Source of the DNA: Kordiimonas sp. SCSIO 12610 | GTDB lineage: Bacteria; Pseudomonadota; Alphaproteobacteria; Sphingomonadales; Kordiimonadaceae | Assembly: GCF_024398015.1 (NCBI RefSeq) | Contig: NZ_CP073747.1 | Coordinates: 248,001-312,000, forward strand | Reading direction: 5' to 3' | DNA length: 64,000 nucleotides | Notes under the pieces: model-generated | What the model saw: only the letters and a program-made list of their open reading frames with translations | Told to the model about the DNA's origin: nothing | The model's database searches: none | Shown here: positions 6,168-16,635 of the stretch, one piece after another | Position numbering within the stretch: position 1 is the first letter of the stretch | Layout: each line of letters starts with the position of its first letter | Made by a program: the position numbers and the translations under genes

Positions 6168-6905
6168 TTATCTCCAGCGAAAACTTACAAAGAAGCAGCC
6201 TATACTCCCAGCAAGAAACATAAAGGCCGGCGCTAAAAACCATTTTAGTGACGACTCAACCTCTTTCTCACTATCGTTAAAAAACCTATATCGTCTTTTG
6301 CCTTTTAGTGTTTTCTTGACGTACTGCTCACCTCTAAAACTACTGTGGGTCTCAATAAGTTCGTGCATCCGGTCAGTCATCGTTTGTTTTCGCGCATTAA
6401 ACTCTGCCTCGCGTTTACGCACAGCTTCTAATGAACCGCTTGACGCATGTGATGTGTAGATAACGTCAAAAACATTCAACGGTTCTCCGGGCAAAATTAT
6501 GCCCAATGATTTATAGTGGAATTGTTGATGGCGCTCTGGAAGTTTACCTATTCCAATAAACCCTAATCCAAGCGAGCCCCCACCCAGCATGAGCATAACC
6601 AAACCTGCAACCATCCAGCCTCGGGTAAATTTAATCTCATTGGTTTGACGTTCCAGCACCACTGAACGGACTTCCTTAATTTCCCGCAGTTTATCGAGTT
6701 CCGCTGAGAAAATAGATCTGCTCATGTCACCGGCGTCAATATCATAGGCCTTTAATAACCTATTGAATATATCTTCCGATGGGTATGACTTCCCAGTTTC
6801 CAATTTTGAAAGATAAGACTGCTCGATATCCATCCTCGCTGCGGCCTCGGGCTGGGTCCAACCATTTGCCTCTCGCTTCTGTCGTATATAATCACCAAAC
6901 TTCAT
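6168..6905 (-). CDS. Membrane-embedded XRE-type helix-turn-helix protein
   Basis: The N-terminus (residues about 4-58) is a Cro/C1-type HTH with the signature WTQPEAAARMDIEQSYLSKLETGKSYPS. A short helical linker leads to a hydrophobic segment at about residues 97-119, a charged middle region of roughly 100 residues, and a second hydrophobic segment at about 222-242 (WFLAPAFMFLAGSIGCFF) ending in FRWR. This predicts a cytoplasmic DNA-binding domain tethered to the inner membrane with a periplasmic loop, in the manner of one-component membrane regulators; that role is inference. SD-like AGGAG precedes the start. The region upstream carries phased GAATAT motifs. Confidence 0.85.
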   Translation of the reverse strand: MKFGDYIRQKREANGWTQPEAAARMDIEQSYLSKLETGKSYPSEDIFNRLLKAYDIDAGDMSRSIFSAELDKLREIKEVRSVVLERQTNEIKFTRGWMVAGLVMLMLGGGSLGLGFIGIGKLPERHQQFHYKSLGIILPGEPLNVFDVIYTSHASSGSLEAVRKREAEFNARKQTMTDRMHELIETHSSFRGEQYVKKTLKGKRRYRFFNDSEKEVESSLKWFLAPAFMFLAGSIGCFFVSFRWR

Positions 6906-6990
6906 GTTGGTCTCCTAAGCTATTGTTTTTAATACCCTCTTGTCGGTGGGGTGATTGCAGTCTTCAGAAGTCTTGCCGAGAATGCCAGAT

Positions 6991-7057
6991 GAATATACTG
7001 GAATATAGCGTTAAATTCAGGAATATTTATACGTACGGCGGAATATATCCGCCGTAC
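6991..7057. promoter_or_regulatory. Phased GAATAT(A/T) motifs and a perfect palindrome upstream of the XRE gene
   Basis: The heptamer GAATATA or GAATATT occurs at 6991, 7001, 7021 and 7041, spacings of 10, 20 and 20 bases, so all copies face the same side of the helix. The last copy overlaps a perfect 10-bp inverted repeat, GTACGGCGGA (7033-7042) and TCCGCCGTAC (7048-7057). It lies 86-152 bases upstream of the membrane XRE gene start. An operator for that regulator is inferred. Confidence 0.5.
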
Positions 7058-7082: not shown

Positions 7083-7129
7083 AATTATTTATCTCTGTAA
7101 TAATAATTATTTATCTCTGTAATAATAAT
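7083..7129. repeat. 22-bp tandem duplication
   Basis: The unit containing TTATTTATCTCTGTAATA is present twice in direct tandem with period 22 (7083-7104 and 7105-7126, with three further matching bases). It covers the putative stop codon of the SEC-C remnant. Confidence 0.85.
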
Positions 7130-7357
7130 GACGATTGCTACCGTCATGTTTTTTTGTCTTCATACAGCATCGCTTGAAACCGATAGCCGGACCCACAAGG
7201 ACAAGGGTCATTACGGCCAAGTTTTTCCACAAGCTCTATATTACCATGAACATATCGTTCACCGCGCTTGACCTGTGTTTCTGATGGATAGGATTTCCGT
7301 CGCTTGCTGATGACCTCAAAAGAACGGCTGATTTGTATATGTTTTGAACGTAGGCAT
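7107..7357 (-). pseudogene. SEC-C zinc-binding domain protein, frameshifted remnant
   Basis: A good SD (AAGGAG) precedes an ATG at 7357, but that frame stops after 13 codons. Dropping one C after the ATG would give a continuous reading ([16 protein letters not shown]...) that runs into [13 protein letters not shown], the first half of a SEC-C zinc motif. A second one-base shift (extra base near 7179) is needed to read the second half, [16 protein letters not shown] motifs (CPCGSG...KCC) bind zinc in SecA tails and small stand-alone proteins. Two single-base shifts suggest decay, although sequencing error at both sites cannot be excluded. The gene would otherwise encode roughly 80 residues. 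Confidence 0.55.
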
Positions 7358-7479: not shown

Positions 7480-8016
7480 TTATTTAGGAGCAACCACCAT
7501 AATCATTTGGCGGCCTTCCAATTTTGGTCTTGCTTCAATTTTTGCTGATTCTTCAACATCTGCAACAACCCGGTTTAGAACCTCCATACCAAGATCCTGG
7601 TGCGCCATTTCGCGGCCTCTGAATCGAATGGTTAGTTTAACCTTGTCACCATTATCAATGAACTGATGAACTTTTTTCAATTTCACATTGTAATCATGTA
7701 CGTCGATATTTGGACGCATCTTGATTTCTTTGACATCTTGGGTTTTTTGTTTTTTCCGAGCAAGGTTAGCTTTTTTCTGCTGCTCGTACTTATATTTACC
7801 GTAGTCGAGAACCTTACATACAGGGGGTTCGGCATTTGGTGAAATTTCAACAAGATCAAGGCCGGAATCTTTTGCGATTCCAATTGCTTTATCGATTGAT
7901 ACTACACCGTGGTTTTCACCTTCTGCTCCTATTAAACGGACCTCATTCACTCTGATTGATCCATTGACGCGTGGTCCTTCCTGTTTGGGTGGACCCGCAA
8001 ATTGCCCTCTACCTAT
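7480..8016 (-). CDS. infC: Translation initiation factor IF-3 (ATA start)
   Basis: Binds the 30S subunit and polices start-codon selection. The N-domain ([20 protein letters not shown]) and C-domain ([46 protein letters not shown]) are complete. The first ATG/GTG/TTG in frame is GTG at 7950, which would delete 22 residues including the conserved RVN segment. Upstream in frame there is no ATG, GTG or TTG before a stop, but an ATA at 8014-8016 has GGAG 7 bases before it and gives 178 residues, the usual family length. IF-3 genes use rare AUU/AUC/AUA starts in other bacteria for autoregulation, so ATA is my choice. It follows thrS. Confidence 0.93.
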
Positions 8017-11127: not shown

Positions 11128-14100
11128 TTACCAAGTAACCTTTTCGATCCCTTCGAAATCGATTGATGTTCCATCTTCGAAATCAATTGTTCCAGACGCA
11201 TCTTCTGTTAGATCGAGATAATTATCATTCTCGCTGGTTATTTGCGAACCATCGTCGAGGTTGATTGTCCAACTTTGACCGCTTAAGCTGTCACCAACCT
11301 TGTCACCAATATCTAATGTATCGGTCCAGCCGTCGCCACCACTTACGGCATCGTTTCCGCTGTCGGCACCGAATGTGAACAGGTCATTGCCTGATCCACC
11401 GGAAAGCGTATCGTTGCCCGCACCACCATCAATGGTGTCATCACCGAAACTGCCGCTGACAAAATCATTGCCGTCGCCTGCATTTACACTATCGTTACCT
11501 GATCCTGCGTAAACGACATCATTACCATCACCAGCATCAACAGTATCATTGCCCGAACTGGCGCTGATACCATCATTTCCTGATCCAGTTGATACACTGT
11601 CATCGCCAGAGCCGGCATATACTGTGTCGTTGCCGTCACCTGAATCAACGGTGTCATTTCCAGAACTAGAGCTAACAAAGTCATTGCCCTGGCCGCCGGT
11701 TACACTGTCGTTACCGGAGCCCGAATATACAGTATCATTTCCATCGCCAGCTTCTACGGTGTCGTTACCTGCACCAGACTGAACCTGGTCGTTTCCTGCA
11801 CCAGCATTAATATCATCAGCATCATTACTTCCAATGAGCGTGTCATTTCCGTCACCACCATTGAATCCAGAGAATGACTGTAAGCCTTCAGTTTCGGGTG
11901 TGCTTTCAACACCACTTTCAAGTTTGACGTTATCAATCGTGTAGGTTTCGCCTGCGAGTGTTGTTTTGGCTTCTACTTCGATGACCGCCACAGAGCCCTC
12001 AGGAAGGCCAGTGATTTGAATACTAACCGATCCATCAGGGTTCGGAGAGCCATCGACATCGACAACTTGGTGTCTTTCCCCGTCGATTGTTACATATACA
12101 TTCAAATAGTCTGCAACAGATCCGCCAGCTTCCAGACCACCGCTTGCGCTTATATCCAGGCTAAGAGCAAGATCGGTTTCGCCGCTAATGTCGATTTCGC
12201 TACTTGTTAGGGTAACAGCCCCGTCAGGTGCGCTTTGATTGGTCGTACCATTGAAGGTATAGGCGCCGTTACTCGTGCCATGGCTTCCTTGATTAACATT
12301 GCTACCCTCTGTTGCTGTGAAACTGGAAGACCCATCATTGAAGTTTTCTTCAAATAGTGTTTTTGGTTCTTGAGTTTCTTCAGCGTCGCTTTCAGAAGCA
12401 GCACTATCGCTAGAGTCTGATTGACTGGACTGTGCTGATGTACTTACGGATTCGTCACCTTCCGATTGTGTTGGTACTTCATCGTTTCCTTCATCATTAC
12501 TTGACGAACTGTCGTGATCTGAATTGTTACCTTGGTTTCCGTTTCCGTTTCCGTTTCCGTTTCCGTTTCCGTTTCCGTTTCCGTTTCCGCCATTATTACC
12601 AGGATTGCTGGCATCTACGCCGTCAGCGTCATTGCCGTGGCCATTATTGCCATCATCCTGACTTTCCTCTTCAGACGTCTGTGTTTCCTCAGTTGCTTGC
12701 TCAGGTGCTGCGTCTTCCGCAGGGGCATCCGCCTCTGCTTCTGCTGCTGGCTGTTCGCTCTCAGCTTGCGGTGCAGGCGTTTCTTCAGCTGCCGGAGTTT
12801 CCTCAGCCGCTTGCTCTGAAGCCGCTTCTTCCGCTGCTGGCGCTTGGGCATCCGCTTCAGCTTCTGCCGCTGGTTGCTCGCTCTCAGCTTGTGGGGCAGG
12901 CGTTTCTTCTTCAGCCGCCGGAGTTTCCTCAGCTGCTTGCTCTGAAGCCGCCTCTTCTTCTGCTGGCGCTGGAGCATCCGCTTCAGCTTCTGCCGCTGGC
13001 TGTTCGCTCTCGCCTTGTGGTGCCGGCGTTTCCTCTTCAGCTACCGGAGTTTCTTCGGCTGCTTGCTCAGGTGCTGCACCTTCAGCTTCCGCCGCTGGCG
13101 TATCAGTTTCAGATTCTTCCGCTGCTGGTGCGCTCGCTTGTTCTGACGCCAACTCGATTAGGTCTGACTTGCTAATATTGCCATCTGCGAAAGAGAAGGT
13201 TTCCACATTTGTGACTGTATCGGTTCCCTGTTCGCCTGTAATAGTGAAGCTGTCAGTGGTTGAGTCGTATGTTACGGTATAATCATCAGCGTTACCGTCA
13301 AATGTGACAGTATCGTTTCCGTTTCCGCCGTCAATTTGATTATCTCCGCTTCCCCCACTTATGGTATCTTTACCATTGCCGCCAGAAATAACATCGTTTC
13401 CTGCACCGCCGTCAATGAGATCGGGATTGTTACCGCCATCAATTGTGTCGTTTCCGGCACCGCCGCTGAGTGTGTCACGTCCTTGACCACCGGATAAAAC
13501 GTCGTTGCCATCACCGCCAGCAACATTGTCGTGTCCTCTATCGCCTAGCAGGGTATCATTACCGTTTCCGCCAGAAATATGGTCAGCATTTTTTCCGCCG
13601 TTGATATTGTCGTCACCATCACCGCCGCTGATTGTGTCGTGACCTTTACCGCCTGTTATCGTATCTGCGTTATCACTGCCTGTCAGAGCGTCATTTTGGT
13701 TGGTACCAACAATTGTTTCACCTGCCTGAGTTTCAGGTGTTTCTTCTTCCGCTGCTGGCGCTTGGGCATCCGCTTCAGCTTCTGCCGCTGGCTGTTCGTT
13801 CTCAGCTTGTGGGGCCGGTGTTTCTTCTTCAGCTACCGGAGTTTCCTCGGCTGCTTGCTCTGAAGCCGCCTCTTCTTCTGCTGGCGCTGGAGCATCCGCT
13901 TCAGCTTCTGCCGCTGGCTGTTCGCTCTCGCCTTGTGGTGCCGGCGTTTCCTCTTCAGCTACCGGAGTTTCCTCGGCTGCTTGCTCTGATGCTGCTTCTT
14001 CCGCCGCTGGCTGTTCGTTCTCAGCTTGTGGCGCTGGCGTTTCTTCTTCAGCCACCGGAGTTTCCTCGGCTGCTTGCTCAGGTGCTGCTTCTTCTGCTGC

Positions 14101-16635
14101 TGGCGCTGGGGCATCCGCTTCAGCTTCTGCCGCTTGGGCATCAGCTTCCGCCGCTGGTTGTTCGTTCTCGGCTTGTGGTGCGGGCGTTTCTTCTTCAGTT
14201 GCCGGAGTTTCCTCGGCTGCTTGCTCAGGTGCCGTCTCTTCTGCTGCTGACGCTGGAGCATCCGCTTCAGCTTCGACTGCTGGCTGTTCGTTCTCGGCTT
14301 GTGGTGCGGGCGTTTCTTCTTCAGTTGCTGGAGTTTCCTCGGCTGCTTGCTCTGGTGCTGCTTCTTCCGCTGCTGGCGCTGGTGCTTGGGCATCAGCTTC
14401 CGCCGTTGGCTGTTCGCTCTCAGCTTGTGGTGCGGGCGTTTCTTCTTCAGTTGCCGGAGTTTCCTCGGCTGCTTGCTCTGGTGCTGCTTCTTCCGCTGCT
14501 GGCGCTGGTGCTTGGGCATCAGCTTCCGCCGTTGGCTGTTCGCTCTCAGCTTGTGGTGCGGGCGTTTCTTCTTCAGCCGCCGGAGTTTCCTCGGCTGCTT
14601 GCTCAGGTGCCGCTTCTTCTGCTGCTGGCGCTGGGGCATCCGCTTCAGCCGCTGGCTGTTCGCTTTTTTCTTCATCTGAAGCATCGGTTGGAATTGTTTC
14701 GAAATTACTTCCTATTGTAGAATCAACAGCAGTGTCGTCTAAATCTAAAACATTACCGGAGAGTGCTTCGGTAATATCGCTGTTGCTCTCATCAACCAGG
14801 TCAAAGGAGACGCTTTTGATAGTAAAATCTGAACTGTCAGTTCGATTGTCACCAACGGCTATTTCATTTCCGTTTTGGTCTATAAGGTCAAAACTACCAT
14901 CATCTGCAAGGCCATCACTATTCTGGTCTTCACCATTTGAATTGGCACCGTTCGTATAATCAACAGCAGAGAAGACAATTTTGTCAAAGGGTTCATCAGA
15001 TTGAATGTTGAATGAGCCATCATCGCGGCCAGAGTTAGCGACAAATGTTCCTGATCCAACCTCTACACCGTCTCTGAACAGGGTATATTGGCCTGTTTCA
15101 TCTGTTCCGCTTAGGCCGTCTCGGTTTTCATTTGTGAATAACCGATCAATTTCAAAAGATACGCCTTCTGCCAAACGATCAATTTCAATAACAACGGTTT
15201 CGCTTTGCCCCGTTGCTGCATCAAATTCGATTTGGCTGATGCGGTCATCACCTGTATCGACGCCGACACCATTTCTACCGTGATCTAGTTCGACCACATT
15301 GCCTTCGAGGTCTGTACCATAGATGTTGACATTTAAGGTATCGTCCGCCGGTGCTGGATCAGTTGTTTCTGCCTCTGGCGCAGGGTCAGTTGTTTCTGCC
15401 TCTGGCTCAGGGTTATTTGTTTCCGCCTCTGGCTCAGGGTTATTTGTTTCTGCCTCTGGCTCAGGGTCAGTTGTTTCCGCCTCTGGCGCTGGGTCAGTTG
15501 TTTCCACCTCTGGCGCTGGGTCAGTTGTTTCTGCCTCAGGCTCAGGATCGGTTGTTTCTGCTTCTGGCGCTGGGTTAGGTGTCTCAGCCTCTGGCGCTGG
15601 GTCAGTTGTTTCTGCTTCTGGCGCTGGGTTAGGTGTCTCAGCCTCTGGCGCTGAGTCAGTTGTTTCTGCCTCAGGCTCAGGATCGGTTGTTTCTGCCTCA
15701 GGCTCAGGATCGGTTGTTTCTGCTTCTGGCGCAGGGTCAGTTGTTTCTGCTTCTGGCGCTGGGTTAGGTGTCTCAGCCTCTGGCGCTGGGTCAGTTGTTT
15801 CTGCCTCAGGCTCAGGATCGGTTGTTTCCGCCTCTGGCGCAGGATCGGTTGTTTCTGCCTCTGGCGCAGGGTCAGTTGTTTCCGCCTCTGGCTCAGGGTC
15901 AGTTGTTTCCGCCTCTGGCGCTGGGTCAGTTGTTTCCGCCTCTGGCGCTGGGTCAGTTGTTTCTGCCTCTGGCGCAGGGTCTGTTGTTTCCGCCTCTGGC
16001 TCAGGATCGGTTGTTTCCGCCTCTGGCTCAGGGTCAGTTGTTTCCGCCTCTGGCGCTGGGTCAGTTGTTTCTGCCTCTGGCTCAGGGTCTGTTGTTTCCG
16101 CCTCTGGCGCTGGGTCAGTGGCGTCGATATCAAACAGGCCAGACCGTGCTGCGTCGTCTGCGGTGAATATTTCAGCAGTTTCTTCCGATAAAGCGGCGGC
16201 AGGCGCTGATGTTGCCTCGAAATTTTGTTCAGGTGCCGGGGCTTGGTCCACTGAAACCGTGTCGATCGTTACTTCAGGGTTCTCAGTTTGGTTGCTAGCA
16301 GCCTCATTATCGGATTGTGGTGACACTTCTGTGGGTGCTGTGTTGACAAAAGAGTTGTCCTGATCACGGTCTTCATCCTGTGATCGGCTTTGTGAAGTGG
16401 CACTGGTGGTAACCGAAGGGTCAGATGCTTCAAAGCCAGAGGAATTGAAATTGTCCCCAGACGATGTGGATCCGGTGTGCAAATTGGGGGCAGTCAGGTT
16501 TTCACTGCCTTCTAACTCGATATTGGAAGCGAGCTTTGCTTCCTCATTCTGAGTATTCTGTGTCTGCGATAAAGCCAACTCATCCTGAGCTTGATCGACG
16601 CTACTGGTACGATTAGATGTTTGTTTATCAGTCAC
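11128..16635 (-). CDS. Giant repeat-rich RTX protein, type I secreted
   Basis: At 1,835 residues this is a very acidic, cysteine-free modular protein. In order: a Ser/Asn/Gln-rich N-terminus; 28 full 9-residue repeats (DPAPEAETT type, residues about 173-431); a beta-rich domain (about 432-645); a block of about 40-residue Glu/Ala/Pro repeats (about 652-965); a first set of GGxGxDx(L/I/V) calcium-binding RTX nonapeptides (about 972-1108); a second Glu/Ala/Pro block (about 1166-1322); a Gly-Asn linker; a beta-sandwich domain (about 1426-1579); a second RTX array (about 1599-1749); and a C-terminal secretion signal region ending in FEGIEKVTW. No N-terminal signal peptide. The divergent ABC/ABC/HlyD operon is the likely exporter. 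A surface, matrix or adhesive role is inferred; no enzymatic domain is visible. Confidence 0.92.
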   Translation of the reverse strand: MTDKQTSNRTSSVDQAQDELALSQTQNTQNEEAKLASNIELEGSENLTAPNLHTGSTSSGDNFNSSGFEASDPSVTTSATSQSRSQDEDRDQDNSFVNTAPTEVSPQSDNEAASNQTENPEVTIDTVSVDQAPAPEQNFEATSAPAAALSEETAEIFTADDAARSGLFDIDATDPAPEAETTDPEPEAETTDPAPEAETTDPEPEAETTDPEPEAETTDPAPEAETTDPAPEAETTDPAPEAETTDPEPEAETTDPAPEAETTDPAPEAETTDPEPEAETTDPAPEAETPNPAPEAETTDPAPEAETTDPEPEAETTDPEPEAETTDSAPEAETPNPAPEAETTDPAPEAETPNPAPEAETTDPEPEAETTDPAPEVETTDPAPEAETTDPEPEAETNNPEPEAETNNPEPEAETTDPAPEAETTDPAPADDTLNVNIYGTDLEGNVVELDHGRNGVGVDTGDDRISQIEFDAATGQSETVVIEIDRLAEGVSFEIDRLFTNENRDGLSGTDETGQYTLFRDGVEVGSGTFVANSGRDDGSFNIQSDEPFDKIVFSAVDYTNGANSNGEDQNSDGLADDGSFDLIDQNGNEIAVGDNRTDSSDFTIKSVSFDLVDESNSDITEALSGNVLDLDDTAVDSTIGSNFETIPTDASDEEKSEQPAAEADAPAPAAEEAAPEQAAEETPAAEEETPAPQAESEQPTAEADAQAPAPAAEEAAPEQAAEETPATEEETPAPQAESEQPTAEADAQAPAPAAEEAAPEQAAEETPATEEETPAPQAENEQPAVEAEADAPASAAEETAPEQAAEETPATEEETPAPQAENEQPAAEADAQAAEAEADAPAPAAEEAAPEQAAEETPVAEEETPAPQAENEQPAAEEAASEQAAEETPVAEEETPAPQGESEQPAAEAEADAPAPAEEEAASEQAAEETPVAEEETPAPQAENEQPAAEAEADAQAPAAEEETPETQAGETIVGTNQNDALTGSDNADTITGGKGHDTISGGDGDDNINGGKNADHISGGNGNDTLLGDRGHDNVAGGDGNDVLSGGQGRDTLSGGAGNDTIDGGNNPDLIDGGAGNDVISGGNGKDTISGGSGDNQIDGGNGNDTVTFDGNADDYTVTYDSTTDSFTITGEQGTDTVTNVETFSFADGNISKSDLIELASEQASAPAAEESETDTPAAEAEGAAPEQAAEETPVAEEETPAPQGESEQPAAEAEADAPAPAEEEAASEQAAEETPAAEEETPAPQAESEQPAAEAEADAQAPAAEEAASEQAAEETPAAEETPAPQAESEQPAAEAEADAPAEDAAPEQATEETQTSEEESQDDGNNGHGNDADGVDASNPGNNGGNGNGNGNGNGNGNGNGNQGNNSDHDSSSSNDEGNDEVPTQSEGDESVSTSAQSSQSDSSDSAASESDAEETQEPKTLFEENFNDGSSSFTATEGSNVNQGSHGTSNGAYTFNGTTNQSAPDGAVTLTSSEIDISGETDLALSLDISASGGLEAGGSVADYLNVYVTIDGERHQVVDVDGSPNPDGSVSIQITGLPEGSVAVIEVEAKTTLAGETYTIDNVKLESGVESTPETEGLQSFSGFNGGDGNDTLIGSNDADDINAGAGNDQVQSGAGNDTVEAGDGNDTVYSGSGNDSVTGGQGNDFVSSSSGNDTVDSGDGNDTVYAGSGDDSVSTGSGNDGISASSGNDTVDAGDGNDVVYAGSGNDSVNAGDGNDFVSGSFGDDTIDGGAGNDTLSGGSGNDLFTFGADSGNDAVSGGDGWTDTLDIGDKVGDSLSGQSWTINLDDGSQITSENDNYLDLTEDASGTIDFEDGTSIDFEGIEKVTW
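12535..12588. repeat. Hexanucleotide microsatellite (GTTTCC)9
   Basis: Nine perfect copies of GTTTCC on the plus strand, encoding the alternating Gly-Asn linker of the RTX protein. Length changes by whole hexamers would stay in frame and alter only linker length. Confidence 0.95.
13740..14680. repeat. Tandem repeats of about 123 bp in the RTX gene
   Basis: Encodes roughly 40-residue units such as AEEAAPEQAAEETP followed by EEETPAPQAE. Two adjacent copies (around 14370-14495 and 14495-14615) are nearly identical at the DNA level with period 123. Shorter related copies lie at 12670-13140. Confidence 0.85.
15345..16120. repeat. 27-bp tandem repeats (28 full copies) in the RTX gene
   Basis: Each unit encodes a nonapeptide of the form DP(A/E)PEAETT. 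Counting the protein gives 28 full units and one truncated unit. Variation is mostly GCG versus GAG (Ala/Glu) and a few TT-to-PN or NN changes. No unique spacers lie between copies. Confidence 0.95.

Follow-up and report, generated by a model that had tools for sequence, protein, structure and literature searches.

The helically phased GAATAT array described here is probably the operator of the adjacent gene, which encodes a predicted membrane-tethered regulator of the XRE type; as a whole, the system would operate by cooperative, class II-like, signal-dependent positive autoregulation, with a serine hydrolase as its effector. How a membrane-fixed regulator finds its DNA is called unclear in the abstract of a 2025 paper (PMC11856585). 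The family described here, which occurs in Alpha- and Gammaproteobacteria and has about one operator per genome, located at its own gene, provides a clean test case for target finding, and for this XRE family the target, the half-sites and the control mutants can be named beforehand. More generally, an unnamed regulator family and a subfamily of serine hydrolases acquire a common and testable role.

The phased array and the composite operator

Within the 64-kb stretch of DNA that was analyzed (termed here the window), the heptamers GAATATA, GAATATA, GAATATT and GAATATA begin at positions 6991, 7001, 7021 and 7041, that is, at spacings of 10, 20 and 20 bp, just as an earlier reading of the sequence alone (the sequence-only reading) had claimed. 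That reading took them for a helically phased, regulator-type site upstream of the gene for a membrane-tethered XRE protein, an interpretation that is supported here. GAATATW is not by itself rare (47 occurrences in the window versus 20.3 expected); what is unusual about the array is its phasing and not the frequency of its motif. At least three GAATAT copies in one 10-bp register are found at a single place in the window and in none of 60 simulated Markov-1 windows, and at least four phased copies in none of 40,000 simulated intergenic regions of 255 bp. The organism's own genome has two mismatch-free occurrences of GGAATAT-N13-GGAATAT, both of them within the array; no copy of the intergenic region was detected there, only matches of 15-30 bases with E above 0.8. 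When three mismatches were allowed, 7 more sites were obtained versus 5 control matches; hence there is no evidence of more targets in this genome.

Read toward the XRE gene, on the minus strand, positions 6959-7005 have the form TATTC-10-TATTC-11-(C/T)ATTC-GA(A/C)TT-AAGA(A/C)T. This predicted 47-bp composite operator/promoter element agrees with the composite pattern (given below) at zero mismatches and is the single such site in the genome. Its components, all on the minus strand, are half-site A (TATTC, 7001-7005) and half-site B (TATTC, 6991-6995), at a conserved distance of 10 bp; a degenerate half-site C (CATTC, 6980-6984), 11 bp from B, which overlaps a weak -35-like hexamer, CTGGCA (6983-6988), assigned by geometry; an opposed half-site E (GACTT, 6968-6972), which lies in the promoter spacer and is conserved as GAMTT in the composite pattern; and, 18 bp from the -35-like hexamer, a conserved but weak -10-like hexamer, AAGACT (6959-6964). 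Farther upstream on the same strand are a distal half-site D (TATTC, 7021-7025), 20 bp from A, and a further distal copy (TATTC, 7041-7045), which is in phase and is absent at the same place in the same-genus genome G001. If the hexamer is taken as a -10, then the start site would fall at about 6952, with B, A and D centered near -41, -51 and -71; C would overlie the -35, and E would fall within the spacer.

Thus the sequence-only reading located its phased copies correctly, and the functional element predicted here is wider, reaching from about 7025 down to 6959; left out of its description were the degenerate third copy, the opposed half-site, the weak -10 at its fixed place and the serine hydrolase target. 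It had also pointed to a perfect 10-bp inverted repeat overlapped by the 7041 copy. Such a repeat is indeed present (7033-7042/7048-7057, no strand assigned), but as a component of the site it was rejected: it occurs in none of the 79 wider loci and, among the 15 relatives' loci, only in L001, which is the window's own genome. It is therefore considered incidental.

Other features of the surrounding DNA were noted as well. A perfect 22-bp tandem repeat (AATTATTTATCTCTGTAATAAT twice, positions 7083-7126) is situated between the XRE operator and the gene remnant that comes next. On the minus strand at about 7120-7240 is a short coding-like stretch, possibly a small gene or a remnant, which we take to encode a SEC-C zinc motif and which is also found upstream of XRE in G001 (L002). 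Another minus-strand ORF (7480-7950), presumably infC-like, is listed with an internal GTG as its start; the true start is probably upstream, at a rare start codon. Positions 11128-16635 (minus strand) hold an ORF of 1835 aa with two sorts of repeat, long acidic ones rich in PA/E and glycine-aspartate ones that look like those of the RTX kind.

Conservation in the 41 related genomes

Near full-length XRE orthologues are present in 15 of 41 related genomes (the window's own included). Upstream of the gene, on its coding strand, TATTC-10-TATTC-11-(C/T)ATTC is exact in 13 of these 15, usually with one more copy 19-21 bp upstream and followed by a GACTTC-AAAAGACT-like block. Across all 41 genomes, TATTCN5TATTCN6YATTC has 13 matches without mismatch, every one of them before XRE. 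The composite pattern, TATTCN5TATTCN2CTNGNANNCN7GAMTTN3AAGAMT, has 24 matches in 16 of the 41 genomes when at most 3 mismatches are allowed: 15 before XRE (one for each of the 15 genomes that have the gene) and 9 before a serine hydrolase; a reversed control pattern has none in the 41 genomes. The two outcomes that the sequence-only reading itself had named as counting against it, namely that the motif is common and unphased elsewhere or is not conserved upstream of orthologues, did not materialize: the spaced pattern is not common elsewhere and is conserved before orthologues.

XRE is apparently absent from genome G024; there, however, only 11 bases separate the start of its LysR neighbor from a contig end, and an assembly gap is the probable cause. 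Two or more neighboring XRE copies occur in some metagenome-derived Kordiimonadaceae (L066, L067 and L108); in L066 and in L067 the locus has a second high-scoring site, which in L067 is located before another XRE copy.

Conservation in distant bacteria

A scan of public genomes yielded 285 relatives, the best 80 of which were used here; these overlap with the Kordiimonadaceae genomes of the 41-genome set. The best 80 of the 285 include Kordiimonadaceae, Maricaulis, Oceanicaulis, Hyphomonadaceae and Novosphingobium, as well as the gammaproteobacteria Glaciecola, Aliikangiella, Microbulbifer, Rheinheimera and Shewanella. Each whole locus was scanned on both strands with a 47-column matrix, for which 13 Kordiimonadaceae sites had served as the training set, and in 61 of the 64 loci outside Kordiimonadaceae (Alpha- and Gammaproteobacteria) the best match of this matrix is at most 300 bp upstream of XRE. 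The three failures are L126, where the contig ends 18 bp before the gene; L122, where the XRE site ranks third; and L108, where two XRE genes stand in tandem and the gene scored is the second of them, the site being 827 bp upstream, before the first copy. Over 18 distant genomes (about 75 Mb, from rounded sizes), the core pattern with up to 3 mismatches is found before XRE in 17, with only two other, weak matches and no control matches. A search for carriage on plasmids gave no match at E 1e-15.

Phasing is conserved along with the motif. In 79 upstream regions, ATTC-ATTC spacings of 10/11 bp occur 136 times (1.3 expected), of 20/21 bp 111 times (1.0 expected) and of 30/31 bp 56 times (1.2 expected), and there is a further peak at 40-42 bp. 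The composite is often accompanied by extra half-sites 10 or 20 bp further upstream, and an ATTC/AGTC-type half-site lies 18-22 bp upstream of A in 34 of the 79 loci. Among five clade groups, which comprise 61 of the 80 loci and were assigned by record titles and site geometry, the site contains 1.07-1.85 bits of information per column versus 0.25-0.42 in the upstream flank.

The spacing between the half-sites and the AAGA(A/C)T hexamer is fixed. Ten alphaproteobacterial loci have ATGACT at the aligned position (CTGACT in L091), and 6-7 nt separate the end of this hexamer from a conserved ATG, which is where the -10 of a leaderless message would lie; this group was picked by its shared geometry and consists of 8 of the 10 Hyphomonadaceae-titled loci and two other Alphaproteobacteria, the remaining two Hyphomonadaceae-titled loci (L095 and L111) having the site further from the ATG. 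The -35 and -10 hexamers are poor in all five clade groups. A variant layout, seen in L095, L111 and L071, has an additional ATTC following half-site C and lacks a clear AAGAMT hexamer.

The XRE protein

The gene (positions 6168-6905, minus strand) encodes 245 aa, with a predicted helix-turn-helix (HTH) at about residues 1-64, a first transmembrane (TM) helix at about 96-120, a periplasmic domain at about 121-221 and a second TM helix at about 222-242. Hydropathy bears out the two membrane segments of the sequence-only reading as hydrophobic stretches at residues 96-120 and 222-242. Membership in the XRE (Cro/cI-type HTH) class follows from matches above the curated Pfam cut-offs to HTH_31 (48.4 bits, cut-off 27, 1.2e-12) and HTH_3 (44.8 bits, cut-off 23, 1.3e-11), and the HTH is the only part of the protein above such cut-offs. 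Because it combines a DNA-binding domain with one or more TM segments, it has the architecture of a transmembrane transcription regulator.

Pfam revealed no Trans_reg_C domain (the OmpR-type winged helix) at E up to 1, only XRE-type HTH families and a sub-threshold DUF1515; by Pfam, then, the protein is not ToxR-like. RodZ likewise was rejected: HTH_25 scores 22.0 bits, under its cut-off of 24.6, and no RodZ model is listed for the window protein; three of the other four proteins match RodZ models at 12.9-19.4 bits versus cut-offs of 208 and 375. NCBIfam lists 14 families for the window protein, all of them scoring below their own cut-offs. A SinR/SinI oligomerization hook was sought after the HTH, where NCBIfam gave HTH-level matches only and most structural matches cover residues 1-71.

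An AlphaFold2 model based on 39 sequences (mean pLDDT 95.9) predicts the HTH, then a long helix (77-120) that contains the first TM segment, then a small alpha/beta domain, and a helix (219-243) at the end of the protein. All 39 sequences agree at residues 27-36 and at others that lie in or near the recognition helix; L078, which has an internal stop, was left out of the protein alignment. A sequence search of solved structures with the XRE protein gave three matches below 0.01, all in residues 2-63, and Foldseek gave none below 1e-3 for the whole protein. The periplasmic domain, which is predicted well by itself (pLDDT 93.2), also has no Foldseek match below 1e-3, and its best VIA-align 2 match among 451 chains has Z 2.9 and rmsd 4.7 over 52 residues; such a missing match for a modeled domain does not prove a new fold.

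A linked serine hydrolase as a probable second target

In 32 of the 80 loci, the gene that comes immediately after XRE, in the same orientation, encodes a member of one cluster of serine-hydrolase-type proteins; the cluster spans 33 loci, the copy in L081 being on the opposite strand. In Kordiimonadaceae, XRE sits elsewhere and a second operator copy precedes the unlinked hydrolase gene. The protein behind this operator belongs to PF00144 in all three Kordiimonadaceae cases scanned (E 3.1e-40 to 2.9e-47), and it matches the gene beside XRE in 20 loci at 39-46% identity and 236-313 bits, as against at most 112 bits, among the matches listed, for the relatives' other PF00144-like paralogues. By sequence comparison, then, the Kordiimonadaceae hydrolase is judged to be orthologous to the gene that immediately follows XRE in those 20 loci; in ten further loci the hydrolase next to XRE is more distantly related (54-80 bits). 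A simple search found an SxxK motif in 27 of the 32 downstream frames.

The hydrolase orthologue is present in 12 of the 41 genomes, with the operator before 10 of the 12. The two without it are in G006, which has neither XRE nor the site, and in G007, where XRE and its own site are present. G019 has the operator before the hydrolase and no full-length XRE; its LysR neighbor is missing as well, and both gene loss and an assembly gap are possible. No hydrolase orthologue was found in the window's own genome (best match 26% identity) or in G001; hence XRE itself is the only target found in the window's organism.

Proposed mechanism and alternatives

From sequence comparisons we infer that the XRE protein binds the array. 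The main evidence for this, beyond linkage, is covariation: operator distances correlate with HTH distances when the periplasmic domain is removed (partial r 0.372; 0 of 2000 permutations) and not with periplasmic domain distances when the HTH is removed (partial r 0.088; 244 of 2000 permutations). The operator thus appears to vary with the HTH and not with the periplasmic domain, which is to be read as indicative, the permutation ignoring the tree. Activation rather than repression, the signal and the hydrolase substrate we infer as well. In the proposed mechanism, the XRE protein would be anchored in the inner membrane by its two TM helices, with the HTH in the cytoplasm and a sensor domain of about 100 residues in the periplasm. 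Several copies would bind cooperatively to one face of the DNA at half-sites 10-11 bp apart. The occupied half-sites would be centered at about -41 and -51, in many cases also at about -61 or -71, beside a promoter whose -35 and -10 hexamers are poor. A row of bound proteins would recruit RNA polymerase in a class II-like manner, as the poor hexamers together with the phased half-sites upstream suggest, and the outcome would be signal-dependent positive autoregulation of the XRE gene. The effector would be a secreted PF00144 serine hydrolase, encoded in the same operon in many lineages and served by its own operator copy in Kordiimonadaceae. Counting against this proposal are the operator without a full-length XRE in G019, the hydrolase without a site in G007, the lack of a hydrolase orthologue in the window's own genome and in G001, and the weakness of the -10 hexamer. 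XRE domains, moreover, usually bind inverted pairs. For SinR, binding to a tandem repeat is reported to be no better than to one site alone (PMC3163267).

The same protein and operator could instead mediate negative autoregulation, XRE covering the -35 and the spacer and repressing both itself and the hydrolase until a periplasmic signal arrives; this we consider less likely but quite conceivable. Half-sites C and E are located within the predicted promoter. The opposed half-site E would suit a repressor as well, the nearest solved relatives of the HTH include the repressors DdrO, SinR and P22 c2, and in the 10 leaderless-type loci only 6-7 nt lie between the site and the ATG. Yet the promoter hexamers are poor in every clade group, and phase-fixed half-sites extend further upstream than a simple blocking repressor would presumably need. 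PhoB-type boxes, for their part, resemble 10-11 bp tandem half-sites near a -35, so that the repeats might be the box of an OmpR/PhoB-family response regulator controlling XRE and the hydrolase; that there is about one site per genome, that it travels with XRE across classes despite differing neighbors and that it varies with the XRE HTH make this improbable. Curved, nucleoid-protein-bound or chance A+T-rich DNA with no dedicated regulator would account for the twofold excess of GAATATW in the window, but hardly for an array that none of the 40,000 simulations reproduced, and it is contradicted by conservation, both in the information content of the site relative to its flank in the five clade groups and in the ability of a Kordiimonadaceae matrix to locate the site in other classes; its probability is negligible.

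Positive autoregulation by the XRE protein may also be given a spatial form, which we put forward tentatively and regard as unlikely. By transertion, synthesis and membrane insertion of the product would bring the gene along to the membrane, and the phased operator would catch freshly inserted, membrane-fixed XRE copies; because its gene is brought to the membrane, XRE would act almost only on that gene (and on the split-off hydrolase gene). The result would be a self-dedicated membrane-tethered regulator, that is, a cis-favored positive feedback switch reporting a periplasmic, perhaps cell-wall, signal.

Comparison with known systems

ToxR, CadC, TcpP, VtrA and TfoS carry OmpR-type or other DNA-binding domains. 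Like the XRE protein, for which binding is predicted, they are inner-membrane-anchored one-component DNA binders with a periplasmic part (PMC10269533); the same survey gives over a hundred types of DNA-binding domain for transmembrane one-component regulators, helix-turn-helix being the most frequent. The XRE protein differs in that its N-terminal HTH is of the XRE/SinR-like kind, that two TM helices come after it, and that in most cases there is only one predicted operator, at its own gene. With SinR of Bacillus subtilis it shares a similar HTH fold (Foldseek 1b0n, E 2.7e-3), and SinR promoters have several copies of the consensus GTTCTYT in varied orientations, with an inverted pair preferred (PMC3163267). 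SinR, however, is soluble with a tetramerization domain, whereas the XRE protein has a membrane anchor and regularly phased direct half-sites, and no match was seen between the C-terminal parts. Proteins of the DdrO, P22 c2 and C.Esp1396I type (6jq1, 3jxb and 3clc) are soluble XRE proteins; they rank with the best matches to the HTH, at VIA-align 2 Z 9.7-11.2 and rmsd 1.6-3.0 over 64-69 residues, the match being confined to XRE residues 1-71.

The hydrolases resemble other PF00144 serine hydrolases in family membership and in the SxxK of most downstream frames, and their solved relatives include a D-Ala-D-Ala carboxypeptidase and the ClbP peptidase; their only novelty is the linkage to the XRE operator. 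No paper describing the XRE regulator, its operator or the XRE-hydrolase pair was found in the open-licence PMC literature. Taken together, the XRE family and its operator would constitute a transmembrane one-component regulator of a new variant type.
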